Of a stretch of DNA of 64,000 bases, positions 7,273 to 42,364 are shown piece by piece; position 1 is the stretch's first letter, and each line of letters starts with the position of its first letter. The translations under genes and the position numbers were made by a program. Below the pieces are notes generated by a model. The model searched no databases. It was not told the origin of the DNA and saw only the letters and a program-made list of their open reading frames with translations. The stretch is from Acinetobacter sp. XS-4. GTDB taxonomy: Bacteria > Pseudomonadota > Gammaproteobacteria > Pseudomonadales > Moraxellaceae. The stretch lies in NCBI RefSeq assembly GCF_023920705.1, contig NZ_CP094657.1:2046001-2110000 (forward strand), in the 5' to 3' direction.

Positions 7273-7288
7273 GGCAACTTCTATGCCA
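7273..7288 (-). promoter_or_regulatory. Sigma-54 promoter of receptor 4908-7238
   Basis: Minus-strand sequence TGGCATAGAAGTTGCC matches the -24/-12 consensus with exactly ten bases between GG and GC. It lies about 35 bp upstream of the receptor start. Confidence 0.85.
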
Positions 7289-7383
7289 TTTAATTTATTT
7301 AAATAATTTCAAATACTTAATAAAAATTTAAAAATAAAAATGATTCAATGCTGCTGATAGATAGACAGTCTGAAAGGTATTAT

Positions 7384-7399
7384 TGTTGTTATTTCAACA
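7384..7399. promoter_or_regulatory. Putative activator site for the promoter at 7273
   Basis: TGTTGTTATTTCAACA is a perfect 5-6-5 inverted repeat (TGTTG/CAACA), centred about 105 bp upstream of the -24 element. The same repeat occurs at the other sigma-54 promoters of the island, so it is a candidate binding site for the SfnR-like regulator. Confidence 0.6.
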
Positions 7400-7437
7400 T
7401 TCACGATTTAACGTGTTTCATATCCCGTATTAATAAT

Positions 7438-7461
7438 AAAGCCATACAGACGTATGGCTTT
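7438..7461 (-). terminator. Intrinsic terminator after receptor 7491-10103
   Basis: A perfect 10-bp stem (AAAGCCATAC/GTATGGCTTT) with a four-base loop lies 30 bp beyond the stop codon of the upstream receptor gene. Confidence 0.75.
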
Positions 7462-7490
7462 TTAAGATTGTTGGAAATGATTGATTGGTT

Positions 7491-10103
7491 TTAAAATTTA
7501 TAACTAAATTGGCCTTGTACAGTCAGAGGACGCATTGGTTGTAAAAACTCACTATTCGCTCCTGCCAAACCATTCACAAAATTTCGTTCATTGGTTAAGT
7601 TAAGAATGTTAAGGCCCACAGTCCACTGTGGCTGGCGATAATAAAGACCTAAGTCCAGATTATAGTTATTCGGTACTTTCACGGTTTGACTTAAGTTTGT
7701 GTACCAGTAGCTTGTCCACCATCCCGAAAGGTTGACCCCAAAACCAGACTGATGTTGATAATCTACATAAGCACTTGCAGAGTATTTGGGAATTCCTGCT
7801 GCATCATAACGTCCAGCTTTACGTTGGTTTAAAGCATTATTGTCTCCCCAAACTGTAGCATTGTCCGCATGAAAGCCAAATGGTGAAAAACCAGCAGGTA
7901 CAATAGAGCTGTATTCGGCATCCAAATAAGTGAAATTGCCCCCAATCGCTATATTTTTTTGAAGTTGCCATCTTAATGATGACTCAATACCTTTTACTTC
8001 AAAGCGAGCCATATTGCCGTTCGTATCTGGCGATAAATCTCGTTTTTGTTCAAATCCACTTATGGTTAAAAATAACTGGTCAGTAATAGGTTCATATTTA
8101 AATCCTACTTCTTTTAGCTCACTTTGACTGTCAAAAGCTAAAGGATTAAGTTGATTTCCTGCACCCCAAATCAAGAAAGGGCCAAATACTCCCGTATTTA
8201 ATGCAGTGCTTTTGTCATAGGTAAAATAGAGTGTGCTTTTCGCAGTAGGCTTAATAAACGTACTCAGTTGATAGCTCAATAGACTATATTTATCACTCGA
8301 CGAACGGACATCTGTTGGGGTTAAAACAAGTGGGTTTTCAAGTTTTGCTCTTACAGAACTGTGGTTAATGCCTAAATTAATACCGAATACATCGTTAAAG
8401 GTAAAGTTTTGTTGAGTGAACACACTCAACGTATCCCAGAAACCAGAGCCCGTATAGACAGCGCCTCCTCCATTCGGTGGAAAGCCACCTTTTTCAGCAT
8501 ATAAACCATTTCCAATTGGGTACATGCGCGGCAAATTTAAATAGCCAAAATATTGAGAATATTGAGGCACTCCGGCTTGTCCAATCCAACCTCCTGTTGA
8601 ACCGCTATTGTTAATTAACCCCAGTAAATCACCAGGATTCTTCTGCGATGGATCATTGGTTAAATCATAAGGATTAATATTAAAACTATTATTTGCAGCT
8701 AAAGACGTAAACTTCTCATGACGATATGTTCCTCCGGTACTGCTTTTATTATTAATTTTTACGCCACCTATTTCAAAATCATAGTCCCCTAAAAATTCTA
8801 GTCGGTTATCAATTAACTCATGATCTAAATCTGTAAAGAAGCTCCCAACAGAGTCGCCTAAATCTTTGTTATTTTGATAGAGCGTACTGTTTGCAATAGA
8901 CCAATGGTCATTTAAATCTTTAATTACTTTTAATTGGGTACTAAATCGCTTGGCACTATTTTTATCTTCACTACGTCCTGAAACATTATCATCTAGCTTG
9001 ACCAATTCATTACCGGGGATTGATGGATCATACACCCAACCTTTAATCGTTCCTGCTTGATCAGCAGTTGAGTTCGGTAACGGTGTGGTCTGAACTCCAC
9101 CAACAGCAACATATTGGTTTTTATCGTTCTTCTGACGAGTTTGCCAACCAATGACTTTAGAATTTGCCGCACCCGATTCAAATACAGGAGACCAAAAAGT
9201 CGAACCGTTTTGAATAATAGGCGTAGCTCTACCTTTGTAATAAAGGCCATTATCAACAGATTGCTGCGACGCTCTATTCCAGCCATGCGTCACGTTAAAA
9301 TCATAATAGTCATCGTAACTGATATTCCAATCTACCCTTAAACGATCATTTGGACGCCAAGCAAGTGCCCCATAAAATGCATTAAAGTTATTTTTCACAT
9401 TGTCATAATAGTCATCTGTTTTTTGTGCTGTTGCACTCACGCGAAATGCTAATTCTTTTGAAATGGGTGCTGTATGATCAATACTGACAGAGAAATTAGG
9501 CTCTGCACCTTTACCTGAGTAAATGGAACCTACAGTGCCAGAGATATTGGTTTCAGCTTTATTAAAATTAGGCTTTTTGGTCAGGTAGTTAATATATCCG
9601 CCAGAACCTGAAGTCGGCGCAAAAATTACACCTGTTGGTCCTGCCACAATATCGGCTCCTTCATAAGCATTGAGATTGGTGGGATGGCGAGTACTGTAAA
9701 TGCGTTGACTATCTTGAAAAACTTCCGAGTTCTGTCCACGAATTTGTGGAGCAAAATTAGCATTTTGTCCCCCGCCTCGCGTAATGCTAGGTGCATATTT
9801 GACGAGATCATCCGCACTGCGAATAACATCTTCTCTAAATTGTTGTTCTGACACTTGGGATACTACACGCGGGGTATCCAATACAGAGCTATCAGTTCCA
9901 TAAATTGAGGTAACTTTGCGTTTGGGAACAATGGTAGTTTTCTTGGTTGCTCCAGTAACGACGACATCGGACAAAGTAATTACATCACTTTCAGAATCGC
10001 CTAGTTGTTGAGGTGTTTCTTCGGCGAAAACATATAACGGTAAAGTCGCCCCTAATACGCTAAGCGCAATAACTAAAGGTTTTAATTGAAAAGGCTGTCT
10101 CAT
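7491..10103 (-). CDS. TonB-dependent receptor (siderophore-receptor type)
   Basis: An 870-residue outer-membrane receptor with a signal peptide (about 1-27), TonB box (TLSDVVVTG), plug (about 75-190, including SQVSEQQFREDVIRSADDLV and IRGQNSE) and a beta-barrel ending SYKF. The plug resembles ferric-siderophore receptors. Its placement in a sulfur island, its own sigma-54 promoter (10138-10153) and the divergent orphan peptide-type binding protein make an organosulfur ligand more likely; this is inference. There is no Cys, and only three Met occur after the initiator in 870 residues. It has its own terminator and is apparently monocistronic. Confidence 0.92.
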   Translation of the reverse strand: MRQPFQLKPLVIALSVLGATLPLYVFAEETPQQLGDSESDVITLSDVVVTGATKKTTIVPKRKVTSIYGTDSSVLDTPRVVSQVSEQQFREDVIRSADDLVKYAPSITRGGGQNANFAPQIRGQNSEVFQDSQRIYSTRHPTNLNAYEGADIVAGPTGVIFAPTSGSGGYINYLTKKPNFNKAETNISGTVGSIYSGKGAEPNFSVSIDHTAPISKELAFRVSATAQKTDDYYDNVKNNFNAFYGALAWRPNDRLRVDWNISYDDYYDFNVTHGWNRASQQSVDNGLYYKGRATPIIQNGSTFWSPVFESGAANSKVIGWQTRQKNDKNQYVAVGGVQTTPLPNSTADQAGTIKGWVYDPSIPGNELVKLDDNVSGRSEDKNSAKRFSTQLKVIKDLNDHWSIANSTLYQNNKDLGDSVGSFFTDLDHELIDNRLEFLGDYDFEIGGVKINNKSSTGGTYRHEKFTSLAANNSFNINPYDLTNDPSQKNPGDLLGLINNSGSTGGWIGQAGVPQYSQYFGYLNLPRMYPIGNGLYAEKGGFPPNGGGAVYTGSGFWDTLSVFTQQNFTFNDVFGINLGINHSSVRAKLENPLVLTPTDVRSSSDKYSLLSYQLSTFIKPTAKSTLYFTYDKSTALNTGVFGPFLIWGAGNQLNPLAFDSQSELKEVGFKYEPITDQLFLTISGFEQKRDLSPDTNGNMARFEVKGIESSLRWQLQKNIAIGGNFTYLDAEYSSIVPAGFSPFGFHADNATVWGDNNALNQRKAGRYDAAGIPKYSASAYVDYQHQSGFGVNLSGWWTSYWYTNLSQTVKVPNNYNLDLGLYYRQPQWTVGLNILNLTNERNFVNGLAGANSEFLQPMRPLTVQGQFSYKF

Positions 10104-10137
10104 ATCACACTCAGTAAAGTAAATTTACAATGCGTTA

Positions 10138-10153
10138 CGCAAAGCCTATGCCA
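10138..10153 (-). promoter_or_regulatory. Sigma-54 promoter of receptor 7491-10103
   Basis: Minus-strand TGGCATAGGCTTTGCG has the GG-N10-GC spacing and lies 35 bp upstream of the receptor ATG. Confidence 0.85.
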
Positions 10154-10214
10154 ACCAAGAAACGACCAAACAATTTGCCCTAACCATTTGATTTAGTTGT
10201 TTTTAATTTCTCAT

Positions 10215-10254
10215 TGTTTACTTATCAATTCTATTCATGTTTATTTTTTCAACA
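10215..10254. promoter_or_regulatory. Putative activator sites shared by two divergent promoters
   Basis: TGTTTACTTATCAATT (10215-10230) is a partial match to TGTTG-N6-CAACA. TGTTT-N7-CAACA (10238-10254) has one extra spacer base. They sit between the sigma-54 promoters at 10138 and 10336 and could serve both. The matches are weaker than at other sites of the island. Confidence 0.4.
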
Positions 10255-10335
10255 AAGCTGCTGGAATAGAGACACCCACTAAAAACAATAATTATTTAAG
10301 TAATTGATAAATATATTAAAACTATATAAAAATAT

Positions 10336-10351
10336 TGGCATTTATTCTGCA
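10336..10351 (+). promoter_or_regulatory. Sigma-54 promoter of binding protein 10389-11972
   Basis: TGGCATTTATTCTGCA has GG-N10-GC spacing. The predicted transcript start is about 25 bp upstream of the ATG at 10389. Confidence 0.85.
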
Positions 10352-10388: not shown

Positions 10389-11972
10389 ATGACAAATCAA
10401 ACATTTCAGTTATCACGTCGAAAATTTTTAACACAAAGTCTCACGGCGCTAGGTGGCGTCTCTTTATTGGGTAGTTTATCAGGCTGTGGCCCCTCTCCAG
10501 ATAATAGTAACGAATCAAAAACTACCTCCTCAGCAACGCCAAAGCATGGAGGTGTTATACGCTTGGGTCTAATTGGAGGACAACAATCAGGCAGTCTAGA
10601 TCCTCATCTTTCAGCATCGGGAAGTGGTATTACAAGAGGTTTCGCTATTTATAATAAGTTATGGGAATGGGATGAAAATATGCTGCCCCGACTTGCTTTA
10701 GCGGAGTTTGCAGAACCTAATCACAATGCAAGTGAATGGACCATTCGGTTACGTAAAGGCTTAGAATTTCATCACGGTAAAACCATTACTGCTGATGATG
10801 TGATCTTTTCAGTTAAACGTCTAACAGATCCTAAACTCGCCTCACCATTTCGTAATCTGGTGCAGTGGATTGACCGAGATCGTATTCAAAAACTAGATGA
10901 ATATACGGTTCGTATTCCTTTTATTAGTACGATTCCCGGCTTTGTTGCACTGCCCGAAACTTGGGTAAATTTTGGAGGAATTGTACCAACCGACTTCGAC
11001 CCTATTCATAATCCAGTCGGAGCTGGTCCATATAAAGTCAAAGAGTTTATTCCGGGGCAGCGTTCTGTTTTTACTCGTTTTAATAATTACTTTAAAGCAG
11101 ACAAACCTTATGCAGATAGTTTTGAAGTGATTGATTTTAAAGATCAGGTCTCTCGATTAAATGCTTTATTGGCTGGACAAATTGATGTCGCAAATGCGAT
11201 TTCACCCGAATATATTAAAATTTTGGAGCAAGCAAAACACATTCAAACCATACGCTCTGCGACCAATACGCATAATAGTTTTGACTTTAATACTCAACAA
11301 GCGCCGTTTAATGACCCTAGAGTGCGTCAGGCATTTCGTTTGATTGCAAACCGAGAGGAGTTGGTACAACGAGGCTTAAATGGACAAGGTCGAATCGCCA
11401 ACGATCTTTATTCACCGCAAGACCCTGCCTTTCTCAATTTGCCGCAGCGCCAACAAAATATTACCGAGGCAAAAAATCTATTAGCGCAAGCAGGTTTTAA
11501 AGATGGTTTGAGTGTAGAGCTTGTTACCCCAGTGAGTAGCGCTCAACCTGCATTAATTTTTGCCGAGCAAGCAAAACAAGCCAATGTGAATATTCGAGTT
11601 AAACAAGTGGATTTTGCAACGTTCAATGGCCCTGACCGCAGTAAGTGGCAGTTATCGAGTAATGCGACCAATGTCGGTACGCCCTATTTATCGACTGCCG
11701 TTGTTAACGATGCTCCAATTTCTACAACGAATCGTGTGAATTTTAAAGACCCTGAATATAGTGAGTTATTTTTTAAAGCACTGGCAGAACCTGATTTAGC
11801 CAAACGCAAAATCCATTTAGCGCAAGCACAAAAAATTCAACATGAACGTGGTGGAATGCTCATTTGGGGATTTAGCCATACGATTGACGCAGCAGCTAAA
11901 AATATTGGTGGTTTAACTCCTGAACATACGATTTTTCCAACATGGCGTTTTGAAAAACTCTGGAAAGCTTAA
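10389..11972 (+). CDS. Tat-exported lipoprotein, peptide/nickel-type ABC substrate-binding protein (orphan)
   Basis: Periplasmic binding protein of the DppA/OppA family (SBP_bac_5), 527 residues. The N-terminus carries a twin-arginine motif (SRRKFL, about 9-14), a hydrophobic stretch and a lipobox (SLSGC, Cys about 33), so it should be exported folded by Tat and then lipidated. Family motifs include WTIRLRKGLEFHHGKTITADDVIFS and NDPRVRQAFRLI. It is a close paralogue of 37613-39187. No permease or ATPase adjoins it, so it probably feeds the transporter at 33791-37607 (inference). It is transcribed divergently from receptor 7491-10103 under its own sigma-54 promoter. Confidence 0.9.
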   Translation: MTNQTFQLSRRKFLTQSLTALGGVSLLGSLSGCGPSPDNSNESKTTSSATPKHGGVIRLGLIGGQQSGSLDPHLSASGSGITRGFAIYNKLWEWDENMLPRLALAEFAEPNHNASEWTIRLRKGLEFHHGKTITADDVIFSVKRLTDPKLASPFRNLVQWIDRDRIQKLDEYTVRIPFISTIPGFVALPETWVNFGGIVPTDFDPIHNPVGAGPYKVKEFIPGQRSVFTRFNNYFKADKPYADSFEVIDFKDQVSRLNALLAGQIDVANAISPEYIKILEQAKHIQTIRSATNTHNSFDFNTQQAPFNDPRVRQAFRLIANREELVQRGLNGQGRIANDLYSPQDPAFLNLPQRQQNITEAKNLLAQAGFKDGLSVELVTPVSSAQPALIFAEQAKQANVNIRVKQVDFATFNGPDRSKWQLSSNATNVGTPYLSTAVVNDAPISTTNRVNFKDPEYSELFFKALAEPDLAKRKIHLAQAQKIQHERGGMLIWGFSHTIDAAAKNIGGLTPEHTIFPTWRFEKLWKA

Positions 11973-14063: not shown

Positions 14064-14079
14064 TGCACAAGCTATGCCA
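14064..14079 (-). promoter_or_regulatory. Sigma-54 promoter of tonB-exbB-exbD
   Basis: Minus-strand TGGCATAGCTTGTGCA has GG-N10-GC spacing and lies about 40 bp upstream of the tonB start. Confidence 0.85.
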
Positions 14080-14142: not shown

Positions 14143-14158
14143 TGTTGGTTTTCAGACA
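14143..14158. promoter_or_regulatory. Putative activator site for the tonB-exbB-exbD promoter
   Basis: TGTTGGTTTTCAGACA has one perfect half (TGTTG) and a 3/5 match in the other, with the usual six-base spacing. It is centred about 73 bp upstream of the -24 element. Confidence 0.4.
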
Positions 14159-14180
14159 GTGTTATGCTGTTCAAACAACA

Positions 14181-14215: not shown

Positions 14216-15349
14216 TTATTTTAATTTATATCCTACTAAGGGTAAGACTTCTTCAGCCACTCGATATGCTTCTTCTAAATGCGGGTTACTGGCTAAAATA
14301 AAATGTCCCACCCCAATATCAATATATTCTTGCAAACGTTCTGCGACTTGCTTATAGCTCCCGACTAAAATACAGTTTGGGCCGCCTCGTACATTTGACA
14401 TTCCCGCCCACACATTCGGACTCACAAATAGGTCTTCAAAACGGTTGCCTTGTGCTAAGGCTTGCTGGCGCTTTGCTCCTACAGATTCAGTGTCTTTACG
14501 TTCAAAAGCATTACTATCGACAGCAATGGTTTCATACATTTGTTTAAGCTCTTGGAAGGCTTGTTCTTGGGTTGGTCGTGCTAAAATATCAATACGCATG
14601 CCAAATTTAACTTTGCGTTCCGGCGAATTCTGCTCAAAGAAGTTTTGAGCCTGTTCGATCACTTTCTTCTGTTGGTCTACAGGTTCGCCCCAAGTTAAGT
14701 GGATATCTGCGTGACGTCCTGCGACTTGTAAAGCTGCATCGCTTGCACCTGCTAACCATAAACGTGGAACGTCATATTGATTCATTGGGTATTTCAGGCC
14801 ACCTTGTTCAACATGGAAAAACTTTCCATCGTAATTGAAAGGTGCATGGTGTGAATAACCTTTCACAAATTCTAAAAACTCATTGGTCCGTGCATAGCGT
14901 TGATCATGTTCAATAAAGTCCCCATATGCGCGTTGCTGCGCACCGCCTCCACCTGAAATTACATTCCACTCTACTCGTCCCTGACTTAAACGCTGCAAAC
15001 TTGCAGCCATTTGACTTGCATAAGTAGGATGAATAAACCAAGGCTGAATTGCGATGAGCAAACGAAGTCTTTTAGTTTCTCTTGCCAGTGCAGACGCTAA
15101 CACCCATGGTTCTTCAGTATGTGGAAAAGCAGGAATGAGTGCACCATGAAAACCAACAATATCGGCTGCTTTCGCCACTTGCTCGACATAGTCATAGTAA
15201 GCAAATAACTGATCCTCATGTTGCGGCGCAACACGTTGTGGAGATTGAACTGCTGGAGTTAATTGATTCCATTCACCGCGTGTGTGTAATTGATGTGCTC
15301 GACGACCATCCCCATGAACAGGGATTCTCCATAAAAACTCAACTGACAT
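14216..15349 (-). CDS. SsuD-like FMNH2-dependent sulfonate monooxygenase
   Basis: LLM flavin monooxygenase of 377 residues, the closest of the four in this window to alkanesulfonate monooxygenase SsuD. It shares MSVEFLWRIPVHGDGR at the N-terminus, then HLTWGEP, SPNVWAGMSNVRGGPN and NPHLEEAYRVAEEVLP. Such enzymes oxidise an alkanesulfonate to an aldehyde and sulfite with FMNH2 from a separate reductase. It stands alone on the minus strand, divergent from the SsuA-like operon (15665-19163), each side with its own sigma-54 promoter and shared activator sites. Importer and oxygenase are therefore probably co-induced. The exact substrate is not known. Confidence 0.88.
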   Translation of the reverse strand: MSVEFLWRIPVHGDGRRAHQLHTRGEWNQLTPAVQSPQRVAPQHEDQLFAYYDYVEQVAKAADIVGFHGALIPAFPHTEEPWVLASALARETKRLRLLIAIQPWFIHPTYASQMAASLQRLSQGRVEWNVISGGGGAQQRAYGDFIEHDQRYARTNEFLEFVKGYSHHAPFNYDGKFFHVEQGGLKYPMNQYDVPRLWLAGASDAALQVAGRHADIHLTWGEPVDQQKKVIEQAQNFFEQNSPERKVKFGMRIDILARPTQEQAFQELKQMYETIAVDSNAFERKDTESVGAKRQQALAQGNRFEDLFVSPNVWAGMSNVRGGPNCILVGSYKQVAERLQEYIDIGVGHFILASNPHLEEAYRVAEEVLPLVGYKLK

Positions 15350-15405: not shown

Positions 15406-15421
15406 AGCAGGAATCATGCCG
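15406..15421 (-). promoter_or_regulatory. Sigma-54 promoter of SsuD-like gene 14216-15349
   Basis: Minus-strand CGGCATGATTCCTGCT keeps GG-N10-GC spacing; the first base differs from the TGGC consensus. It lies about 57 bp upstream of the ATG. Confidence 0.75.
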
Positions 15422-15493: not shown

Positions 15494-15541
15494 TGTTGAT
15501 ATTTCAACACTTAAACACTAACGAGTGTCTCAATCACAACA
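15494..15541. promoter_or_regulatory. Two putative activator sites in a divergent control region
   Basis: TGTTGATATTTCAACA (15494-15509) is a perfect 5-6-5 inverted repeat, extendable to 18 bp with outer G/C. TGTCTCAATCACAACA (15526-15541) is a partial second copy. They lie midway between the divergent sigma-54 promoters at 15406 and 15614, about 80-120 bp from each. The rest of the 315-bp spacer 15350-15664 holds only these sites and promoters. Confidence 0.65.
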
Positions 15542-15613: not shown

Positions 15614-15629
15614 TGGCTTAGTTCTTGCT
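15614..15629 (+). promoter_or_regulatory. Sigma-54 promoter of the SsuA-like transporter operon
   Basis: TGGCTTAGTTCTTGCT has GG-N10-GC spacing and lies 36 bp upstream of the ATG at 15665. Confidence 0.85.
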
Positions 15630-15664: not shown

Positions 15665-16738
15665 ATGCGTATTTTTCCACGTCTACTTTTAGGTTTCAGT
15701 TTTTTGGGTCTCGTTGCTTGTGGCGCACAAAAAACCGAAGAGTCCACCCAAAAACAGTCTGAACAGCAACAACTCCGAATTGCAGTCGTTGCCAATGGTA
15801 CTTCGGGTAGTTTGGACTTTATTGGTGTGCCACAACTGATTTCACAAGATCAAATTTTTCTAAAAGCCTTAAAGCAAAATCACATTGAATTAAAGTGGGA
15901 ACCTGTGACGACTGCTGCCGTGGCAACTCTGGTCAATGAAAGTTTTATAAATAATAAAATCGATTTTGCTTTTTACGGAAACCTTCCTGCTGTAGTGCTC
16001 AATGCAACAGGCGTTAAAACGCAAATTGTTGTACCCGGAGGTATAGGTAATAACGTCTACCTTATTGTTCCAGCGAATTCACCTATTAAATCCATTGAGG
16101 AATTAAAAGGTAAAAAAATTGCATTACATCGTGGCCGTCCGTGGGAAATTAACTTTGGGCAACTCATACAAAGTAAAGGACTAAGCTTAAAAGACTTTCA
16201 AATTGTGAATTTAAACCCGCAAGCTGGGGCTGCTGCTTTATCTGCCAAAAGTGTAGATGCCTTTTTTACCTTAAGTGATGCGCTTACTTTGCAAGATCGC
16301 CATCTGGGTAAAATCATTTGGTCGTCACAATCTTTGCCACAAGACTGGAAAATGCGTGCTGAACTCTGGGGCAGTAAAAGTTATATCGAGCAACACCCAG
16401 ACACCACACAATTACTCGCTGATGCGACAGTACGTGCAATGGATTGGATTGCACACCATCAAGATGAGTTTCAGCAAAGTCAAACCAAGTTTGGCCAACC
16501 TCTTAGTGTGATTCAACGTGAAAGCCAGAACACGGCAAGCACATGGCAACAAGACTGGTCTCCAGACTATCAAGTCGACTTTCTGAAACAGCATTATTCA
16601 AAAGTCATTAATCACGCAGTGAAAAATCAGCTTATTCAAACCCCAATCAAAGCAGATGAACTGTTGAATCCGAAGTTTACCCGTCAAGCGATTCAAAATT
16701 TACAGGCCAATCATGCCTCAAATAAGCAGGGAAACTAG
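15665..16738 (+). CDS. SsuA-like sulfonate ABC transporter binding lipoprotein
   Basis: Periplasmic binding protein of the SsuA/TauA/NrtA group, 357 residues. A signal peptide ends in the lipobox LVAC (Cys about 19), so it is membrane-anchored. Family features include LRIAVVANG, ATLVNESFINNKIDFAFYGNLPAV and SIEELKGKKIALHRG. It is first in an operon with two permeases (16742, 17585) and an ATPase (18408), giving a complete importer. The start at 15665 follows two closely spaced out-of-frame ATGs and has a poor ribosome site. The ligand, presumably an aliphatic or aryl sulfonate, is inferred from the family and the neighbouring SsuD-like enzyme. Confidence 0.9.
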   Translation: MRIFPRLLLGFSFLGLVACGAQKTEESTQKQSEQQQLRIAVVANGTSGSLDFIGVPQLISQDQIFLKALKQNHIELKWEPVTTAAVATLVNESFINNKIDFAFYGNLPAVVLNATGVKTQIVVPGGIGNNVYLIVPANSPIKSIEELKGKKIALHRGRPWEINFGQLIQSKGLSLKDFQIVNLNPQAGAAALSAKSVDAFFTLSDALTLQDRHLGKIIWSSQSLPQDWKMRAELWGSKSYIEQHPDTTQLLADATVRAMDWIAHHQDEFQQSQTKFGQPLSVIQRESQNTASTWQQDWSPDYQVDFLKQHYSKVINHAVKNQLIQTPIKADELLNPKFTRQAIQNLQANHASNKQGN

Positions 16739-16741
16739 ACA

Positions 16742-17581
16742 ATGAAAATACTAGTAAAGCCACTTATTGAGCAAAATAACGTTTTATTTAAAACCCCACT
16801 CCGTAAGAAATTTTCTTCTAAAAAGGTATATGGGCTGCTCTCTGTGATTTCACCCTTATTAGTATTACTCATTTGGCATTTGATTAGTTCTTTACAGATT
16901 TTCCCAACCCAAATTTTGGTGCCACCTAAAACTGTCTGGAATACTTTCATCGCGTTGTTACAAAGCGGTGAGCTTCAAATGCATCTCAAAGATAGTCTTT
17001 CACGTTTGTTTTTGGGATTTTCTATTGCAGCAATCAGTGCAATTGCTTTTGGTATTGCTTACGGGGCAAATACTCTATTTCGCAATTATACCTATATTTT
17101 ATTTAACGTTTTTTATCAAATTCCAATCTTTGTCCTTATTCCTATTTTTATTTTAGTTTTTGGGATTGGTGAATTATTTAAAATTTTACTGATTATCAAA
17201 GCCTGCTTTTTTCCAATTGCATTAGCAACGGCCGATGCAGTCAAGAATATTCCTAAAAAATATATTGAACTAGGACAAATCTACCAGCTTAAAACACGTG
17301 CTTGGCTCAGGCTTATTATTCTTCCATCCATACTCCCGCCGTTAATTGGTGGATTACGCATTGCACTTGGTCGCGCATGGTTGATTTTAGTTGCTGTTGA
17401 ACTACTGGCAGCTGGAACGGGTATTGGGCAAATGATGGAACTGGGACGTCAAATGTTACGCTTAGATGTTGTAATGGTTGGTGTGTTTATCACAGGCCTA
17501 GTGGGCTTTGGTTTAGATAAAGTTTTACGTTTAGTGGAACAACGCTTTATCTCACCTGCGCTTAGTTCGGGGGAGAAATAA
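16742..17581 (+). CDS. SsuC-type ABC permease, first subunit
   Basis: A 279-residue inner-membrane permease with about six helices and the ATPase-contact loop around PKKYIELGQIYQL followed by LPSILPPLIGGLRIALGRAW. It is second in the SsuA-like operon, starting 3 bp after the lipoprotein gene, and is followed 3 bp later by another permease. The pair probably forms a heterodimer. It corresponds to one half of the fused permease at 1745-3370. Confidence 0.9.
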   Translation: MKILVKPLIEQNNVLFKTPLRKKFSSKKVYGLLSVISPLLVLLIWHLISSLQIFPTQILVPPKTVWNTFIALLQSGELQMHLKDSLSRLFLGFSIAAISAIAFGIAYGANTLFRNYTYILFNVFYQIPIFVLIPIFILVFGIGELFKILLIIKACFFPIALATADAVKNIPKKYIELGQIYQLKTRAWLRLIILPSILPPLIGGLRIALGRAWLILVAVELLAAGTGIGQMMELGRQMLRLDVVMVGVFITGLVGFGLDKVLRLVEQRFISPALSSGEK

Positions 17582-17584
17582 ATA

Positions 17585-18373
17585 ATGTCTCAGCGTTCAT
17601 TTACTTTAAAACAATCATGGCAACGGCCAATTATTTTAGTACAAGGCTTAGTACTGCCATTATTGTTATTAGGCTTATGGCAATACAACTCAAGCTTAGG
17701 TGCTAGTCATGCCTATGCATTTGTTCCTTTGCAAAACATTTATTTCGCATTTATCAAATTGCTTGAAACAGGTGAATTGTGGCTAAACACATGGGGAAGT
17801 CTTAAAAAAGCCGGAATAGGATTTATCTTAGGTTCGATAAGCGGATTAATTTTAGGTACTTTGCTTGCCTATTCAAAAGTTTTAAATGCTTTAGTTTCTC
17901 CACTATTTAACAGTATTCGACAAGTTCCGTTACTGGGTTTAACACCTTTAATTGCCTTATGGTTTGGTAATGGAGAAGAAGCAAAAATCTTTATTATCGC
18001 GCTTGCCTCGTTTTTTCCATTAGTGATTAATACATTTCAGGGCCTTAGCCACAATGATGCAAAATACGATGAAATCGCACGTATTTATCAATTTTCATTC
18101 TGGCGAAAATTTAAAAAAATACGCCTTCCCCAAGCCCTACCCCATATTTTAACTGGTCTAAATTTAGCGGTGCCCTTTACTTGGATCACCACTACAGCAA
18201 GTGAATTGCTATTCAATGCAGGTGCTGGACTTGGCAACTTAATGATGAAAGCCGAGATTAATGCCGAAATGGATATTCTGTTGGTTTGCGCCATAACGGT
18301 TACCCTTTGTGGGGCCTTTATGACAGCAGGTATTCATCTTATTTCAAAACGCCTGCTGCAATGGCGTACCTAA
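17585..18373 (+). CDS. SsuC-type ABC permease, second subunit
   Basis: A 262-residue inner-membrane permease with the conserved loop DEIARIYQFSFWRKFKKIRLP and the following LPHILTGLNLAVP. It directly follows the first permease gene and precedes the ATPase. Two different permeases for one binding protein is unusual for SsuABC, where a homodimer is normal, but it matches the two-domain permease of the other transporter in this window. Confidence 0.9.
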   Translation: MSQRSFTLKQSWQRPIILVQGLVLPLLLLGLWQYNSSLGASHAYAFVPLQNIYFAFIKLLETGELWLNTWGSLKKAGIGFILGSISGLILGTLLAYSKVLNALVSPLFNSIRQVPLLGLTPLIALWFGNGEEAKIFIIALASFFPLVINTFQGLSHNDAKYDEIARIYQFSFWRKFKKIRLPQALPHILTGLNLAVPFTWITTTASELLFNAGAGLGNLMMKAEINAEMDILLVCAITVTLCGAFMTAGIHLISKRLLQWRT

Positions 18374-18407
18374 TTTGTCTTTTTAAAAAATATTGTTAGG
18401 AATTTAT

Positions 18408-19163
18408 ATGTCGTTCTCACTACTTTCTATTAAAAAACTCAATAAATCTTTTCAACGTGATCAAAATACTTTGACCGTTTTAGATGGTATTAATCTCAAC
18501 ATTGAGCAAGGTGAATTTATCTCGATTGTTGGTAGTAGTGGCTGTGGAAAATCAACACTATTACGTCTTATTGCTGGATTGGATCAAGACTATGACGGTG
18601 AAATTTTACTGAATCAAACCCAGATAAAAGGCACAGATTTAAAACGTGGTCTTATCTTTCAAGAACACCGATTACTTCCATGGCTTACTGTTTTTGAAAA
18701 TATCCATTTAGCACTTGAGGAGACTCCACTCACCCGTGAAGAGAGAAATTTACGGGTAAATGAACATATAGAAATTGTCGGGCTGAAGGGTTTTGAAAAG
18801 GCGTATCCACATGAGCTTTCTGGTGGCATGGCACAACGTGTTGCAATTGCCCGTGGACTCGTCAATAAACCCGATATTTTACTTTTGGATGAGCCTTTTG
18901 GCGCTTTAGATGCCATCACACGGGGTCACTTACAAGCTGAACTTCAGCGTATCTGGCAACACGAAAAAATCACTATGATTTTAGTCACTCATGATATTGA
19001 AGAAGCTGTCTATCTTGGAGACCGTGTCATTGTGATGTCAGCCCGACCAGGAAAAATTAAAGAAATTATTCAAGTTCCGTTGACACATCCTCGACATAAA
19101 GAAAGTGAACTTTTATTTGGTTTTCGCAATCAGGCACTTAATATGCTAGATCACACAGCATAA
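18408..19163 (+). CDS. SsuB-type ABC transporter ATPase
   Basis: A 251-residue ATPase with Walker A (GSSGCGKST, 42-50), signature LSGGMAQR (136-143), Walker B (LLLDEP, about 157-162) and H-loop (VTHDIEEA). ATG at 18408 was preferred over an upstream TTG at 18393 because AGGA lies six bases before the ATG. It is the last gene of the SsuA-like import operon. It is similar throughout to 920-1735, consistent with duplication of a whole transporter. Confidence 0.9.
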   Translation: MSFSLLSIKKLNKSFQRDQNTLTVLDGINLNIEQGEFISIVGSSGCGKSTLLRLIAGLDQDYDGEILLNQTQIKGTDLKRGLIFQEHRLLPWLTVFENIHLALEETPLTREERNLRVNEHIEIVGLKGFEKAYPHELSGGMAQRVAIARGLVNKPDILLLDEPFGALDAITRGHLQAELQRIWQHEKITMILVTHDIEEAVYLGDRVIVMSARPGKIKEIIQVPLTHPRHKESELLFGFRNQALNMLDHTA

Positions 19164-20677: not shown

Positions 20678-21754
20678 TTAAGCAATTTCATTTTCATTCT
20701 TATTAGGTAGTAAGTTATATCTTGATAAAAGATTACGTAAAACATTACGCGATAGGCCTAACATTTTTGCTGTCTTGACCTGATTGTTCCAGCAACTTGA
20801 AAATGCAGTATTTACTATTTTATCTTCAATAATATGCCATGCTTCCCCATCATATTCTTGAAACAAACGCTTCAAGATACTTTCAAACTCTTGAATAAGA
20901 TCATTGTCTGGTAACACGGCAGAACCCGGTTCCTCAGAAAATCTTAAATGCTCAAGATCAATTGTTTTACCGCCACTCACCAGCAAAGCATAGTGAATAT
21001 TGTTTTCTAGCTCACGAATGTTGCCTGGCCAGCTATAGTTCAGCAGCGCATTTCTTGCTCTATCACTAATATTTGGCTTAGTGGTAATGAGCTTCTGAGA
21101 ATATGAACTTAAGAAGAAATCAACCAGAGGTAAAATATCTCCTTTACGTTCACGCAGTGGCAAAATATTAAGCACAACCACGTTCAAGCGATAATATAAA
21201 TCTAGACGAAACTTATTTTCTGCTACAGCTTTACGTAGATCGACGTGCGTCCCCGACAAAATACGGACATTAATGGGAATTGGTTTTCGACCACCCACAC
21301 GTACGACTTCTTTTTCTTGCAACACCCTTAATAGCTTAACTTGTAACGATAGAGGCAACTCACCTACTTCATCTAAAAATAAAGTACCACCATCGGCTGT
21401 TTCAAAAATACCAGCTCGAGTTTTGTTTGCACCCGTAAAAGCGCCAGCTTCATAGCCAAACAATTCAGACTCAGCAAGAGTCTCGACCAAAGCACCACAA
21501 TTGACTGCAAGAAAAGGCTTATTTTTACGATCACTTTTCAAATGAATTTCGCGTGCAATTAACTCTTTACCTGTCCCAGACTCTCCTTGAATGATGACAC
21601 TAGCAGAGCTTGGAGCAATCGTTTCAACTTGATTTAATAATTTACGGGAGTTTTGATCTGAAAAGATAATTGCTTTTGCTCTTATTGGTTTTACAGGAAC
21701 ACCATTATCAGGCAAAGTAATTACTTTATAATCATTATCTAAAAAGGTCTTCAT
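20678..21754 (-). CDS. SfnR-like sigma-54-dependent transcription activator
   Basis: Enhancer-binding protein of 358 residues that remodels sigma-54 RNA polymerase. It has almost no N-terminal sensor domain (about 30 residues), as in SfnR of Pseudomonas. An AAA+ domain follows with Walker A GESGTGKE (57-64), GAFTGA (104-109) and Walker B TLFLDEVGELP, and a C-terminal Fis-type helix-turn-helix (NQVKTAKMLGLSRNVLRNLL). Lacking a sensor, its activity is probably set by its expression level. It is the only such regulator in a window with eleven sigma-54 promoters, so I infer it controls them by binding the TGTTG-N6-CAACA repeats. GGGG before the ATG supports the start. Confidence 0.88.
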   Translation of the reverse strand: MKTFLDNDYKVITLPDNGVPVKPIRAKAIIFSDQNSRKLLNQVETIAPSSASVIIQGESGTGKELIAREIHLKSDRKNKPFLAVNCGALVETLAESELFGYEAGAFTGANKTRAGIFETADGGTLFLDEVGELPLSLQVKLLRVLQEKEVVRVGGRKPIPINVRILSGTHVDLRKAVAENKFRLDLYYRLNVVVLNILPLRERKGDILPLVDFFLSSYSQKLITTKPNISDRARNALLNYSWPGNIRELENNIHYALLVSGGKTIDLEHLRFSEEPGSAVLPDNDLIQEFESILKRLFQEYDGEAWHIIEDKIVNTAFSSCWNNQVKTAKMLGLSRNVLRNLLSRYNLLPNKNENEIA

Positions 21755-21923
21755 AATTACCCCATAAAACTTATGATATAAGCATTCTAAAAGGCTATAT
21801 TACATTTCAGTGCGTTTTTTAATAAATAACAAATAAATATATTTAATCCAAAATTCACCTATTTTATTCTGAAAATATTTTCTCTTATAAATTAAAAATA
21901 AACACAATTCTTTTTTTATGATA

Positions 21924-21939
21924 TGTTGCTTCTCAAACA
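21924..21939. promoter_or_regulatory. Putative activator site for the promoter at 22022
   Basis: TGTTGCTTCTCAAACA matches TGTTG-N6-CAACA with one mismatch and is centred about 92 bp upstream of the -24 element. The rest of the 316-bp spacer 21755-22070 is A/T-rich without other recognisable signals. It may also contain the regulator's own promoter. Confidence 0.55.
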
Positions 21940-22021
21940 CAATGTTGTCTTTTTGATTAAATACAAACACTCTAAAAAATTATAATCCATTCCTATATTT
22001 GATTTATATAGGTATAAAGCT

Positions 22022-22037
22022 TGGCATTTATTTTGCT
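22022..22037 (+). promoter_or_regulatory. Sigma-54 promoter of LLM monooxygenase 22071-23159
   Basis: TGGCATTTATTTTGCT has GG-N10-GC spacing. It lies inside an upstream in-frame extension of the gene, which rules that extension out. Confidence 0.88.
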
Positions 22038-23253: not shown

Positions 23254-24516
23254 TTATTGCAAGTCAGGTTTACAAATAGCCTGAATTTTCTCTCCCGCAA
23301 TCACCTTTTTAGCAAACGGAATTGAATCTTTTAAGGAGGCATTCACAGTTTCGCTATGTCCTAAGCCATGATACAAATGACCTTCGACCACTGTACCTGC
23401 TTTACAAGCATCTGCCACTAGTTTCATTTGAGAACGAGCATCTGGAGTTCGGTCATTTGCCCCTGTTCCAATAAATAATGGATGACTGATTTTTAATGTA
23501 GGGTAATAACCATAATCATTTGACTGTTTCTCTTGCAGCTTTTTATAGCTTGCAGGCGGATTAGGTTTATATGCTTGTGCTGGCGAAAGCCCGGCGGTTT
23601 GAATATCTCCCATAAAACTTGTTAAGCAGGCATTTCTTGCTTGTTCAACTAAAGGAGCAGCTTCAAGAGTGAAAATATCCTCTGTTTTAATTTCTGGATA
23701 TAAACTTTGTGTCACTAAAAAACTATAGATGCCATAAGCCAGTGATGGGCTGACTTCGTAAGGATTTAACTTTAACTGATTTTTTTCAGGCGTCGCTTCA
23801 GGATCTTGATAAATCACGCCTGTACCAATTGAACCTTTAATATTTAAGTCAGGTGCGTACGTTGCCGAGTAGGAAGAAGCCGCAACAGCCCCTGCGCCTC
23901 CTTGTGATTGACCAACAATCACAAACTTATTAGCAAGTGGCAACTTGGTTTTTAAAGCAGCTCTACCACTATCTAAAATACTATAAGCCAGCATTGGGTT
24001 ATTAATTAACAAGTGCGGTCCTGCAACACCTAATCCTTCGTAATCTGTGGCAACGACCGCAAATCCTTCTTTAAGCCAACGATTTAAATATTGTACATCT
24101 CGGTATGACCTTCCACTCCAAGACGGCGCACAAGCATCGGCCAAACCGACCGTACCATGTGCCCATAGCACCACTGGCCAACCTTCTTTTGGTGGAGTTC
24201 CTTTCGGTAAGTGAATACTTCCTGAAACCACAATAGGTGTTTTGCTATCTTTACCACTCGTAGAACTGTAGAGAATCCGAATAGCCTGACTGTCATTTGC
24301 CAAACGAATATAAGGATTATGAATCGCTTCTGTTTTTAATAATTTTCCTGCCTGTTCAGGAATAGCCGATTTCCATGTATAAAACTCGGAAACTCGGCCA
24401 TCTCCATATTTATCTTCTGGCGCTGGAGCTTGTTGAGCGGTCGCCAAACAACTTGAAGTTAGCATCGTTGTGATTAAAGAAAACTTGCATAAAGTTGATA
24501 AAAAAGTATGTTGCAT
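23254..24516 (-). CDS. Secreted alpha/beta-hydrolase (secretory lipase/esterase family)
   Basis: A 420-residue hydrolase with an N-terminal signal peptide (about 1-27), the oxyanion region WPVVLWAHGT and the nucleophile elbow GQSQGG (Ser about 200). An Asp and a His of the triad are probably in GTGANDRTPDA and GLGHSE. The layout fits the secretory lipase group. The gene lies 38 bp downstream of receptor 24555-27047 and is probably cotranscribed from its sigma-54 promoter. It may cleave an ester-containing organosulfur compound in the periplasm before or after uptake; that role is inferred. Confidence 0.85.
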   Translation of the reverse strand: MQHTFLSTLCKFSLITTMLTSSCLATAQQAPAPEDKYGDGRVSEFYTWKSAIPEQAGKLLKTEAIHNPYIRLANDSQAIRILYSSTSGKDSKTPIVVSGSIHLPKGTPPKEGWPVVLWAHGTVGLADACAPSWSGRSYRDVQYLNRWLKEGFAVVATDYEGLGVAGPHLLINNPMLAYSILDSGRAALKTKLPLANKFVIVGQSQGGAGAVAASSYSATYAPDLNIKGSIGTGVIYQDPEATPEKNQLKLNPYEVSPSLAYGIYSFLVTQSLYPEIKTEDIFTLEAAPLVEQARNACLTSFMGDIQTAGLSPAQAYKPNPPASYKKLQEKQSNDYGYYPTLKISHPLFIGTGANDRTPDARSQMKLVADACKAGTVVEGHLYHGLGHSETVNASLKDSIPFAKKVIAGEKIQAICKPDLQ

Positions 24517-27077: not shown

Positions 27078-27093
27078 AGCAAAGCCGATGCCA
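27078..27093 (-). promoter_or_regulatory. Sigma-54 promoter of receptor-esterase operon
   Basis: Minus-strand TGGCATCGGCTTTGCT has GG-N10-GC spacing and lies 31 bp upstream of the receptor ATG. Confidence 0.88.
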
Positions 27094-27139: not shown

Positions 27140-27169
27140 GAATCATTGTTTAAATTTAAACAATGATTC
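27140..27169. repeat. 30-bp perfect palindrome, possible activator site and terminator
   Basis: A perfect 30-bp palindrome whose core TGTTTAAATTTAAACA (27147-27162) fits the TGTTG-N6-CAACA layout. It is centred about 63 bp upstream of the -24 element at 27092. On the minus strand it is followed by TTTTATTTAATC, so it could equally terminate the exporter operon ending at 27214. Both roles are possible. Confidence 0.6.
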
Positions 27170-27213
27170 AAAAAAATGTTTATAAAACTACAGTTGTTAA
27201 ATTTGCAGAACGT

Positions 27214-30887: not shown

Positions 30888-30903
30888 TGCGAGATTCATG
30901 CCA
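30888..30903 (-). promoter_or_regulatory. Sigma-54 promoter of the ABC exporter operon
   Basis: Minus-strand TGGCATGAATCTCGCA has GG-N10-GC spacing; the -12 part is CGC rather than TGC. It covers the first ATG of the longest reading frame and so sets the true start at 30854. Confidence 0.7.
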
Positions 30904-30973: not shown

Positions 30974-31038
30974 TGTTGTTTTTAAAACACCAGCGCAATT
31001 CTTGTGTTGTAATCGCAACAAAATTTGATATATCAACA
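30974..31038. promoter_or_regulatory. Three putative activator sites between divergent promoters
   Basis: TGTTGTTTTTAAAACA (30974-30989), TGTTGTAATCGCAACA (31005-31020, perfect arms) and ATTTGATATATCAACA (31023-31038, weaker) lie between the sigma-54 promoters at 30888 and 31090. Spacing is six bases in all three. Confidence 0.65.
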
Positions 31039-31089: not shown

Positions 31090-31105
31090 TGGCATCAATT
31101 TTGCT
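31090..31105 (+). promoter_or_regulatory. Sigma-54 promoter of DszB-like gene 31138-32190
   Basis: TGGCATCAATTTTGCT has GG-N10-GC spacing and lies 33 bp upstream of the ATG. Confidence 0.88.
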
Positions 31106-31137: not shown

Positions 31138-32190
31138 ATGACAACACTTCAAACTCAACCATTAAACACACTTTGGTATACACGCTGCCCTGTACCAACT
31201 GGTCTAGGCATTTCAATTCAAAAAGGTTGGCTCAAAGAAAAGTTTAATAAGCAGCAAATTGAAATAAAATCAATTCGAGAGTCAAACTCCAAAGATATTC
31301 GTAACTCCCATTTTAACCATACCCTTGCCAACTCCGTTCGACACGGTGGTAGTATCCCAGCAATCTGGGCATATGCATCTGGTCAAAAAACTAAAGTGAT
31401 AGGCTTATCTTGGGCTGATGAAGTTCAATTGTTGTTAACACGCTACGATTCAAACATCAAAACTGTTGCAGACTTAAAACGCAAACGTTTTGGTATTCCA
31501 CTGAATCAAGATGCAATTATTGATTTCTCACGTGCACAGGCGATTCGTGGTTTAGAAAATGCCTTAAAAACAGTAAATTTGAAGGTAAGCGATCTTGAGT
31601 TAGTTGATTGTTTACGAGCAGACATTTTAGCCGCCCAACAACAACAGCCTGAAGAAAATGATTCTAGTTTTTATGGTAATCGAAACAAAATTAATGCAAG
31701 TGCAGAGATCGTGGCATTAATTAAAGGTGATGTTGATGCTATTTTCCTAAAAGGTGCACACGCTGCGCAAATTGCTCATGATTTCGCCCTGCATACCATT
31801 ATTGATATTGGCTCACATCCAGACCCTATTCTACGCTCTAATAATGGAACACCAAGAACACTCACTGTTGATGAAGATTTTCTAACGCAATATCCAGAGC
31901 AAGCTCAATCGATTGTCGATGCTGTTTTACAAGCAGAACAATGGGCACATGCACACGCCGATGAAACCCATCGTTATCTAGCAAAAGAATGTAATAGTAG
32001 TGAGCAATGGGTTCATGCAGCTTATGGTGCAGATGCGCATCTGAAACTGAACACTAACTTTGATGAGACTTCTATTGTTGCTTTACAAGACTTGAGTGAC
32101 TTTCTCTATCGCTGGAACTTTATTCCTGCACAAATTAATGTTCGTGAATGGCTTGCACAAGATATTTCTATTCAAACTCAAGTGGCTTAA
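31138..32190 (+). CDS. DszB-like putative sulfinate desulfinase
   Basis: A 350-residue protein with the periplasmic-binding-protein fold of the NMT1/SsuA superfamily but no signal peptide, so it should be cytoplasmic. From memory of DszB (2-hydroxybiphenyl-2-sulfinate desulfinase; catalytic Cys27, with His60, Arg70 and Gly73), the same pattern is visible here: Cys17 in TRCPVPT, His58, Arg68 exactly ten residues later, and Gly-Gly at 70-71 in RHGGSIP. GTPRTLTV and ALQDLSDFLYRWNFIP also parallel that family. It would release sulfite from an aryl or alkyl sulfinate. It is a paralogue of 41149-42207. Automatic annotation would probably call it a sulfonate-binding protein. AGAGGA before the ATG supports the start. 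Confidence 0.72.
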   Translation: MTTLQTQPLNTLWYTRCPVPTGLGISIQKGWLKEKFNKQQIEIKSIRESNSKDIRNSHFNHTLANSVRHGGSIPAIWAYASGQKTKVIGLSWADEVQLLLTRYDSNIKTVADLKRKRFGIPLNQDAIIDFSRAQAIRGLENALKTVNLKVSDLELVDCLRADILAAQQQQPEENDSSFYGNRNKINASAEIVALIKGDVDAIFLKGAHAAQIAHDFALHTIIDIGSHPDPILRSNNGTPRTLTVDEDFLTQYPEQAQSIVDAVLQAEQWAHAHADETHRYLAKECNSSEQWVHAAYGADAHLKLNTNFDETSIVALQDLSDFLYRWNFIPAQINVREWLAQDISIQTQVA

Positions 32191-39187: not shown

Positions 39188-39197
39188 GCCTTCTCCC

Positions 39198-40391: not shown

Positions 40392-40424
40392 AGTATTCTC
40401 GATCTTTATTTTTTAAATCTTTAT

Positions 40425-41135: not shown

Positions 41136-41148
41136 GATCAAATCCTCT

Positions 41149-42207
41149 TTAAAATTTTTTATTTTGACGGCGTTTTAAAACTTCGAGTAAAGGACGATGA
41201 TCAACCCATGTTTCAATATCGACGTCGCGCTCTAAGAAGCCATGCAACCAAAGAAAATCTTTTTGTTGTTTTAAAAGCTCTAAACGCTCTTCACTTAATG
41301 ACGGATGTAAAGACTTATGAAAATTATTTCGATAGGCTGTCGCAACACTCTCTGCCCCGGCAATTGTTTCATCCTCTAGAATGACCAAGACCTCATCTAA
41401 GTGATCTTGTGCCCAATCTGCGGTATCAAACAATTCTTCAAGAAAATCGACGACCACATCAAAATGATCTTCTAATAGGTCTTCATGGACCGTAATGGGA
41501 CGAGGTGTACCGTTATTAACACGAGAAGTCACATCTTCAAATTTATCTAAATCAATTCCAACTTTAAGGCCGCGTTTAGTTGCAGCTTCAACAGCAGATG
41601 CTCCTTTTACATACACAGCATCAACTTCACCTGTAATTAATGCGTCTAGACCTGACCAATATGTGCTCGCATCACGATTCTCTTTAGATCCTGCACGCTC
41701 AGGTACTTCAATAAAATTCACATCTCTGAAAGTGAGATTGGCAAGTTGTAAAGCACCACGAATACCTTGCAATGACATGGCTCTAAAAATACTGCCAGCA
41801 CGTTTGTCAGCATATTCTGGTAAAGCAACTTTCGCATTTTTTAAATGCTCTGGCTGGCTAATATCTGAATCAGGTCGCACAATAATGACTTGCCACTCAT
41901 CAATCCAAGTCAATCCAATTAGTCGGCTGGGTGCTCCTTCAGAGCGTGCAGCTAATGCAGGTACATTTCCACCTTCTCGGAACAGAGCTGGTAATTGGTG
42001 ATCAAAATGATGAACCGATAAACCTTTACGCGCATCTTGCAAGACGGCAACATCAATGCCGTGCTTTTCAAACTTTTTAACTAAAGTACCGCGTTTTAAT
42101 GAAATACCGGTTGCTGTAGGTACTGGACATCGAGTGACCCAAATTTCAGACAGGATATTTTTTACAAATTCTTTAGAATTTTCTTTTTTATCTACTACAA
42201 GTGACAT
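41149..42207 (-). CDS. DszB-like putative sulfinate desulfinase, first gene of operon
   Basis: A 352-residue protein without a signal peptide, a paralogue of 31138-32190. The DszB active-site pattern is kept: Cys27 in TRCPVPT, His67, Arg77 exactly ten residues on, and Gly-Gly at 79-80 (REGGNVP). Cys27 is the only cysteine in the whole protein, which argues for a catalytic role. SRLIGLTWIDEWQV and NNGTPRPITVHEDLL also match the paralogue. It would release sulfite from a sulfinate. AAGGA precedes the ATG, and the operon runs from here through 32498 under the sigma-54 promoter at 42249. A role as a cytoplasmic or non-classically exported binding protein is the alternative. Confidence 0.73.
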   Translation of the reverse strand: MSLVVDKKENSKEFVKNILSEIWVTRCPVPTATGISLKRGTLVKKFEKHGIDVAVLQDARKGLSVHHFDHQLPALFREGGNVPALAARSEGAPSRLIGLTWIDEWQVIIVRPDSDISQPEHLKNAKVALPEYADKRAGSIFRAMSLQGIRGALQLANLTFRDVNFIEVPERAGSKENRDASTYWSGLDALITGEVDAVYVKGASAVEAATKRGLKVGIDLDKFEDVTSRVNNGTPRPITVHEDLLEDHFDVVVDFLEELFDTADWAQDHLDEVLVILEDETIAGAESVATAYRNNFHKSLHPSLSEERLELLKQQKDFLWLHGFLERDVDIETWVDHRPLLEVLKRRQNKKF

Positions 42208-42248
42208 ACGGATTCCTTAGGATAATTCCACTTTCATCACTTACATTG

Positions 42249-42264
42249 AGCAGCTTTTATGCCA
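42249..42264 (-). promoter_or_regulatory. Sigma-54 promoter of the eight-gene DszB-to-DszC-like operon
   Basis: Minus-strand TGGCATAAAAGCTGCT has GG-N10-GC spacing and lies 42 bp upstream of the ATG at 42207. Confidence 0.88.
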
Positions 42265-42318
42265 ATTTAATTTATTGTTTATTTTCAGTTGTTTATGCAA
42301 ATATAGCAGGATTGGAAA

Positions 42319-42364
42319 TGTTTATATTTCATCATTTTTCAATCCCACTGTTGTTTTATCAACA
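42319..42364. promoter_or_regulatory. Two putative activator sites for the promoter at 42249
   Basis: TGTTTATATTTCATCA (42319-42334) and TGTTGTTTTATCAACA (42349-42364, perfect arms) lie about 60-95 bp upstream of the -24 element. Both have the six-base spacer. Confidence 0.65.

Follow-up and report, generated by a model that had tools for sequence, protein, structure and literature searches.

The window analysed here is the whole 64,000-nucleotide stretch of DNA from Acinetobacter sp. XS-4, and it holds a 35-kb cluster of predicted sulfur-scavenging genes (profile scan of the window's open reading frames), referred to below as the island. A domain scan found luciferase-like monooxygenases, SsuA-like binding proteins, ABC permeases, TonB receptors and an SfnB-like oxidoreductase in it. 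The SsuA-, SsuD- and SfnB-like genes stand behind -24/-12 promoters, and their NCBIfam model scores are below the curated cut-offs. The same domain scan found TonB_C in the tonB gene behind the 14065 promoter; the exbB/exbD labels of the two genes downstream of tonB were given by position alone. A regulatory gene lies at the centre of the island:

20678..21754, minus strand: SfnR-family sigma-54 activator, 358 aa (PF00158, PF25601; GESGTGKE, GAFTGA and Fis-type HTH)

An SfnR-like activator without a sensor domain had been placed here in a preliminary description of the locus, and this was borne out: the sigma-54 domain (PF00158, residues 29–195 of 358, 232.5 bits) has no N-terminal sensor domain ahead of it, and the Walker A motif GESGTGKE and the GAFTGA motif were both located. 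The HTH_8 match scored 19.8 bits, below the 22-bit cut-off, and the helix-turn-helix aligns across the SfnR family. A tree of 42 rows, with two other activators of the same genome as the outgroup, set 40 SfnR-like rows, including eight from Pseudomonas, apart from that outgroup with support of 98/97. The island regulator formed a separate subclade, 51–52% identical to the eight Pseudomonas SfnR-like proteins, the island clade sitting on a long stem in a tree for which the tool warned of long branches. The recognition helix SRN-x-x-R was common to the island regulator and most SfnR-like rows, the exceptions being SRH in two Methylococcaceae rows and TRN in a few rows. RpoN is also encoded in the genome.

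Relatives were sampled from 149 genomes of the genus, this one included. SfnR-like activators were found at E ≤ 1e-80 in 44 of these, and the island regulator, at 82–100% identity, in 13 (again including this one); the island was compared in the 12 other regulator-bearing genomes within the contigs and stretches retrieved. Two further genomes, G024 and G120, kept the island and its putative operators with the regulator deleted, giving at least 15 island genomes; both were spotted through their sites, the only route by which regulator-less islands were found, and others may have escaped. In G120 (L125–L127) the central deletion runs from tatB to the middle of a TonB receptor gene, which is incomplete, and ssuA2 and sfnB are also split; G024 (L128–L129) carries a separate central deletion from tatB to oppC. 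No counterpart of 7000–31500 was found among 72,556 plasmid records, and plasmid-borne relatives of the island regulator (363 records) were all less than 60% identical to it.

The predicted sigma-54 promoters of the island and the genes behind them are as follows.

7274..7288, minus strand: promoter TGGCATAGAAGTTGC, conserved, of TonB receptor 4908–7238 and luciferase-like monooxygenase 3689–4954
10139..10153, minus strand: promoter of TonB-dependent receptor-like gene 7491–10103
10336..10350, plus strand: promoter of solute-binding protein 10389–11972
14065..14079, minus strand: promoter of the tonB gene and two downstream genes (14025–12035)
15407..15421, minus strand: promoter CGGCATGATTCCTGC of SsuD-like monooxygenase 14216–15349
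15614..15628, plus strand: promoter of SsuA-like/ABC operon 15665–19163
22022..22036, plus strand: promoter of a luciferase-like monooxygenase
27079..27093, minus strand: promoter of TonB receptor 24555–27047 and lipase-like gene 23254–24516
30889..30903, minus strand: promoter of two ABC-transporter genes; 8/10 relatives have the site at the start
31090..31104, plus strand: promoter of SsuA-like protein 31138–32190
42250..42264, minus strand: promoter of the ssuA3-aldolase-monooxygenase-oppABCDF-sfnB gene run (42207–32498)

All eleven had been listed previously as GG-N10-GC promoters, and a motif scan of the window recovered each of them in its place. They had been said to serve every transcription unit except the left-edge ABC-TonB operon and tatABC; those two units do lack such a promoter, but the same scan also found none ahead of the regulator gene. 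The strict form TGGCA-N7-TGC occurred 13 times in the window compared with 3.0 ± 1.9 times in Markov simulations, and 8 of these 13 were listed promoters; those at 15406, 15614 and 30888 match the relaxed form only. When the orthologous starts were compared in the other 12 genomes with the island, 108 of 111 gene-genome combinations had a YGGC-N8-YGC site there (a count that leaves out one paralogous row, SBP5_a of G104). The site was missing from the start of LLM_c in G014, in which an inverted LLM_c relative carries a promoter at 22616, and from that of ABCexp2 in G104 and G122. The -24 element lies 46–72 bp before the start in ten window genes, and the listed start of ABCexp2 overlaps its promoter. 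For two genes (22022 and 30888) the start in the open reading frame list falls upstream of or within the promoter; the luciferase-like monooxygenase behind the 22022 promoter likely starts at ATG 22071 rather than TTG 21999, and the ABC gene behind the 30889 promoter likely starts near 30854 rather than at 30899. Upstream of the regulator start, some 30 AT-rich bases (GGATTAAATAT..TTATTTAT on the gene strand, window about 21818–21850) are largely conserved in 11 aligned genomes, including this one, and less so in G104 and G014; they form a candidate site for whatever controls the regulator.

Inverted repeats of the 5-6-5 form TGTTG-N6-CAACA, with their matches out of ten, lie in the intergenic regions that hold these promoters.

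7352..7367: repeat, 7/10, promoter-proximal to the 7274 promoter; 32 bp from its partner in 10/10 genomes having the promoter
7384..7399: repeat TGTTGTTATTTCAACA, 10/10
10238..10254: half-pair TGTTTATTTTTTCAACA, a 5-7-5 variant; place conserved in island genomes
10259..10274: half-pair TGCTGGAATAGAGACA, 7/10 in the window and 8–9/10 in relatives; replaces 10215
14143..14158: repeat, 8/10
14165..14180: repeat TGCTGTTCAAACAACA, 9/10; 22 bp from its partner
15494..15509: repeat TGTTGATATTTCAACA, 10/10, common to two divergent promoters; 80 and 112 bp from the -24 elements
15526..15541: repeat, 8/10, common to two divergent promoters; 32 bp from its partner
21924..21939: repeat TGTTGCTTCTCAAACA, 9/10
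21954..21969: repeat partner, 7/10, 30 bp from its partner; pair in 7/10 genomes having the promoter
27147..27162: repeat TGTTTAAATTTAAACA, 8/10
27177..27192: repeat partner, 8/10; 30 bp from its partner
30974..30989: repeat, 9/10, common to two divergent promoters
31005..31020: repeat TGTTGTAATCGCAACA, 10/10, common to two divergent promoters; 31 bp from its partner
31023..31038: weak third repeat, 8/10, 18 bp from its neighbour; kept in relatives
42319..42334: repeat, 8/10
42349..42364: repeat TGTTGTTTTATCAACA, 10/10; 30 bp from its partner

According to the preliminary description, each of the eight intergenic regions contains such a repeat. These positions are indeed favoured, but the 10138/10336 region has no repeat at ≤2 mismatches. 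The repeat proposed there, at 10215, matches 7/10 and is present only in the window and in G100, and is thus not the conserved site; the conserved pair for this region is 10238–10254 plus 10259–10274, both weak in the window. The partners at 7352, 14165, 21954 and 27177 had been overlooked.

Over the whole window the repeat was found 71 times at ≤2 mismatches compared with 50 ± 7 expected, a modest excess, and since the count alone is weak, position and conservation were taken as evidence instead. An unbiased count of 5-base gapped palindromes upstream of the window promoters ranked TGTTG-N6-CAACA first (6 of 12 regions), and it was likewise the top word in G014 (6/10) and in four diverged islands pooled (11/28); in G104 alone it fell outside the top eight, and in G048 plus G019 it came second, behind a TATAT word. 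In alignments of the eight intergenic regions (up to eight genomes), identity to the window was 87% for half-site bases, 72% for the spacer, 91% for the promoter and 58% for other intergenic DNA (half-sites vs the rest, Mann-Whitney 2e-30, the columns not being independent). Genome-wide, we searched for the exact core TGTT-N8-AACA 45–106 bp ahead of TGGC-N8-TGC. All seven matches in the 4.17-Mb genome (six promoters) lay inside the island, and controls gave 0. The same search across the genus gave 112 matches vs 5 controls in the 15 island genomes, in line with the proposed role of the repeat, and 189 vs 48 in the 134 non-island genomes (row sums, island controls included, were partly read off tables by eye). 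Part of these 189 are sites of SfnR paralogues, and many others look like coding sequence. Elsewhere in the genome (C1:3400022–3402224), ten copies of TGTTG-N6-CAACA recur with a 243-bp period; this array, which inflates simple motif counts, is probably a repetitive coding gene and not a set of operators.

The island repeats come in pairs 20–22 or 30–32 bp apart, that is, two or three helical turns. A second repeat was present in 8/8 window regions, at distances of 32, 20, 22, 32, 30, 30, 31 and 30 bp, although four window repeats match only 7/10 and two of them form the 10138/10336 pair. A partner at 20–22 or 30–32 bp with ≤3 mismatches was found in 97 of 109 gene-genome rows, in which divergent regions enter twice; of the remaining rows, 5 had one repeat without a partner and 7 were spaced differently (36, 28, 25 or 24/44). 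Because weak partners could be chance picks, pairing was tested against shuffled flanks in six genomes, with the best repeat as anchor and the mean second-repeat match as the score. Relative to the shuffles the score peaked at offsets 30–32 (z 2.4, 2.9 and 5.2) and 19–22 (z 2.1, 1.5, 3.0 and 2.3), with z 2.0 at offset 28; within the window alone, among the pair offsets, only 30 stood out (z 3.7). In G014 (22616 and 41133) and G104 (34874), genes that are new, duplicated or moved have promoters with repeat pairs at 30, 31 and 30 bp, respectively. From the G014/G104 set of new or moved genes, a monooxygenase (L137, 10365) has a pair 32 bp apart; the pair at G014 45378 is 20 bp apart, and two promoters (L137, 13378/13567) have one single repeat in common. 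At the sigma-54-type promoter 11123 of L124 (G055), which neighbours a non-island activator placed with the island clade in the tree, repeats lie 42 bp apart (four turns).

Distances from repeat to -24 element group near 60, 70, 80, 91, 102 and 112 bp, and in the 15407/15614 region the pair lies at 80 and 112 bp from both promoters. A 10.5-bp phase to the promoter was significant in four diverged genomes (p 1e-6, from related and not independent sequences) and did not reach significance in the window by itself (p 0.08). Matches to the IHF consensus averaged 7.54/9 in 41 enhancer-promoter linkers of six genomes compared with 6.95 and 7.01 (two strands) in Markov resamples.

SfnR reportedly regulates the sfnFG operon in P. 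putida, as the title of a 2005 study by Endoh has it, and work by Endoh in 2003, Habe in 2007 and Kouzuma in 2008 is said, going by titles, to concern P. putida SfnR and the sfnFG and sfnA promoters. Using a Pseudomonas-type query on named genomes, we took the best 80 of 596 candidate sfnG loci, of which 79 had enough upstream DNA (69 from Pseudomonas and 10 from other genera). Within this best-80 set, the repeat (≤1 mismatch, ≤400 bp) lay ahead of sfnG in 55/69 Pseudomonas loci, compared with 0.5% of shuffles; at the same threshold it was lacking in 14/69 Pseudomonas loci, including P. aeruginosa PA7, and in all 10 loci of other genera. A TGGC-N8-YGC site was found within 150 bp of sfnG in 57 of the 79 loci, 54 of which also had the repeat; part of the sfnG loci have the repeat 160–209 bp from the promoter instead of 81–108. 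Neither a repeat nor a sigma-54 site passed the upstream scan at the sfnG gene of the Acinetobacter genome itself. Like the island, then, most of these Pseudomonas sfnG loci have TGTTG-N6-CAACA ahead of a sigma-54 promoter. P. aeruginosa PA7 lacks the repeat although an increase of more than 2,800-fold in SfnG protein is reported for sulfur-starved P. aeruginosa PAO1 (PMC12581299).

The arrangement at sfnG nonetheless differs from that of the island. In 50 of the 55 repeat-bearing loci (best 80 of 596), a third half-site (≥4/5 letters of CAACA) lies six bases past the repeat, on the promoter side only (0/55 on the other side), whereas it was absent from all 69 distinct island sites (≤1 mismatch, 13 genomes, eight orthologous regions). 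The usual Pseudomonas sfnG site thus combines a single repeat with a CRRCA half-site that follows after six bases, and the island has paired full repeats without it; none of the 69 island sites shows the classical layout TGTTG-N6-CAACA-N6-CRRCA (deduced here from sfnG). The half-sites are common to both but the third half-site differs, which suggests that the island is an SfnR-type regulon with its own operator geometry. Another difference from the P. putida SfnR system is that eleven promoters stand in one block. The passages available from PMC13352529, PMC8234197, PMC10256816, PMC8657755, PMC12581299, PMC2848651 and PMC10949508 contain no SfnR operator motif, and the string TGTTG is absent from the available text of PMC13352529 and of some other SfnR-naming papers, which is no claim of its absence from print.

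The SfnR-like paralogues of the genus, which have the same half-site as the island, mostly showed the sfnG-like layout. We gathered 27 paralogue-linked sites, that is, repeat-plus-promoter matches ≤15 kb from a non-island SfnR-like gene; among the matches listed, the third half-site was present at 20 of the 27 (15 of 21 distinct), and these sites, many of them from closely related genomes, were tallied by eye along with the nearness counts. The exact three-half-site word occurred 25 times in the 149 genus genomes vs 6 controls, and 19 of the 25 lay ≤15 kb from a non-island SfnR-like gene; none lay in an island.

Taken together, the SfnR-family activator at 20678–21754 very probably binds the paired TGTTG-N6-CAACA repeats and would drive all eleven sigma-54 promoters. 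Four lines of evidence favour the repeat as its operator, as had been proposed: core and promoter co-occur only in the island of this genome; the half-site bases are conserved; the regulator groups with Pseudomonas SfnR and has the SRN-x-x-R found in most of that family; and the repeat precedes sfnG, reportedly SfnR-regulated in P. putida, in most of the Pseudomonas loci among the best 80 of 596. Weighing against this reading are the two further SfnR-like activators of the genome, the window repeats that match only 7/10, the lower rank of the palindrome in G104 and in G048 plus G019, the phase that falls short of significance in the window, the persistence of island and sites in G024 and G120 after loss of the regulator, and the sfnG loci that lack the repeat. 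Judged from its sequence, the island is a real, conserved SfnR-type regulon, and the preliminary description was right in substance; new here are the pairing of the repeats at set distances, the different layout of classical SfnR sites and the connection with sfnG.

The repeat could also be an SfnR-family operator in an island that is run mainly or jointly by another SfnR-like paralogue, with the island regulator redundant. Seven proteins of the genome match sigma-54 activators strongly. Three of these are SfnR-like, and the two outside the island (1753667–1754728 and 1756507–1757544) are 53% and 49% identical to the island regulator with a nearly identical recognition helix, so that they might bind the island repeats too. 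These two genes (L119, C1:1745000–1764000) flank a DszC/SfnB-like monooxygenase gene and adjoin ABC ATPase genes of branched-chain amino-acid type; no block of sigma-54 promoters was seen near them in the stretches retrieved. Control by a paralogue would also fit the half-site common to paralogue-linked sites and the case of G024, which lacks the island regulator and keeps one paralogue and the sites. Against it, the island regulator is the sole SfnR-like activator at E ≤ 1e-80 in five island genomes (G019, G048, G071, G079 and G100), which makes it the best candidate there; the third half-site that marks most paralogue-linked sites among the matches listed is absent from island sites; and of the 15 island genomes identified, 13 encode the regulator within the island. 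We therefore consider control by a paralogue unlikely.

Less likely still, and very improbable, is a reading in which some other sulfur regulator, of the CysB/Cbl type or another dimeric kind, occupies the repeat and works together with the sigma-54 activator. Short-spacer palindromes are common in many regulator families and the repeat sits at ordinary upstream distances, but such a factor would not be expected from the confinement of this genome's exact-core matches to the island, the recurrence of the repeat ahead of Pseudomonas sfnG, or the nearness of most three-half-site matches to SfnR-like genes elsewhere in the genus. That the palindromes reflect chance in AT-rich sequence, with the sigma-54 promoters alone being genuine, is scarcely credible, since the modest excess at two mismatches and the weakness of some partner repeats, which would suit it, are already outweighed by unbiased discovery in diverged islands, half-site conservation, genome-wide co-location and recurrence at Pseudomonas sfnG.

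If the island activator does act through the paired repeats, one protein would activate almost all of the cluster once sulfate is exhausted. Lacking a sensor domain, the activator probably needs no further signal after its synthesis to be active, and as its gene has no sigma-54 promoter, sulfate starvation would most likely act by switching on the regulator gene. The activator would then be controlled through its amount, by analogy with Pseudomonas, in which the SfnR gene is reportedly under CysB; P. putida SfnR is a sensor-less sigma-54 activator of sulfate-starvation genes in the same clade as the island regulator, for which such a role is predicted. A pair of dimers aligned along the same side of the helix may seed the active ring, which would loop onto closed sigma-54 polymerase about 60–113 bp away with DNA bending and perhaps help from IHF. 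At the three divergent regions, one repeat pair would serve both promoters. A sulfur-starvation response fits the genus: in Acinetobacter baylyi ADP1, the available part of one study reports six organosulfur genes as strongly induced on DMS vs sulfate (delta-delta-Ct -8.66 to -11.91; PMC13352529). These are genes other than those of the island, on which that part of the study is silent; it has SfnR in reference titles only, and 'promoter' and 'binding motif' are absent from its text.

More tentatively, and with rather less than even confidence, coexisting SfnR-family activators may use the same half-site and be insulated from one another by operator geometry, the island being a 35-kb regulon with its own spacing code. 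Under such a code, paired full palindromes two or three turns apart would recruit the island activator, and three half-sites one turn apart the classical ones. If it is true that spacing, not sequence, separates paralogous sigma-54 activators, this would be an unusual route to regulon specificity. The comparison yields a testable cis-code for SfnR-type regulation in Pseudomonas and Acinetobacter, one from which the target genes of each of several near-identical activators can be predicted. It also groups a whole set of uncharacterised transporters, TonB receptors and flavin monooxygenases into what is likely a single unit for sulfur starvation.
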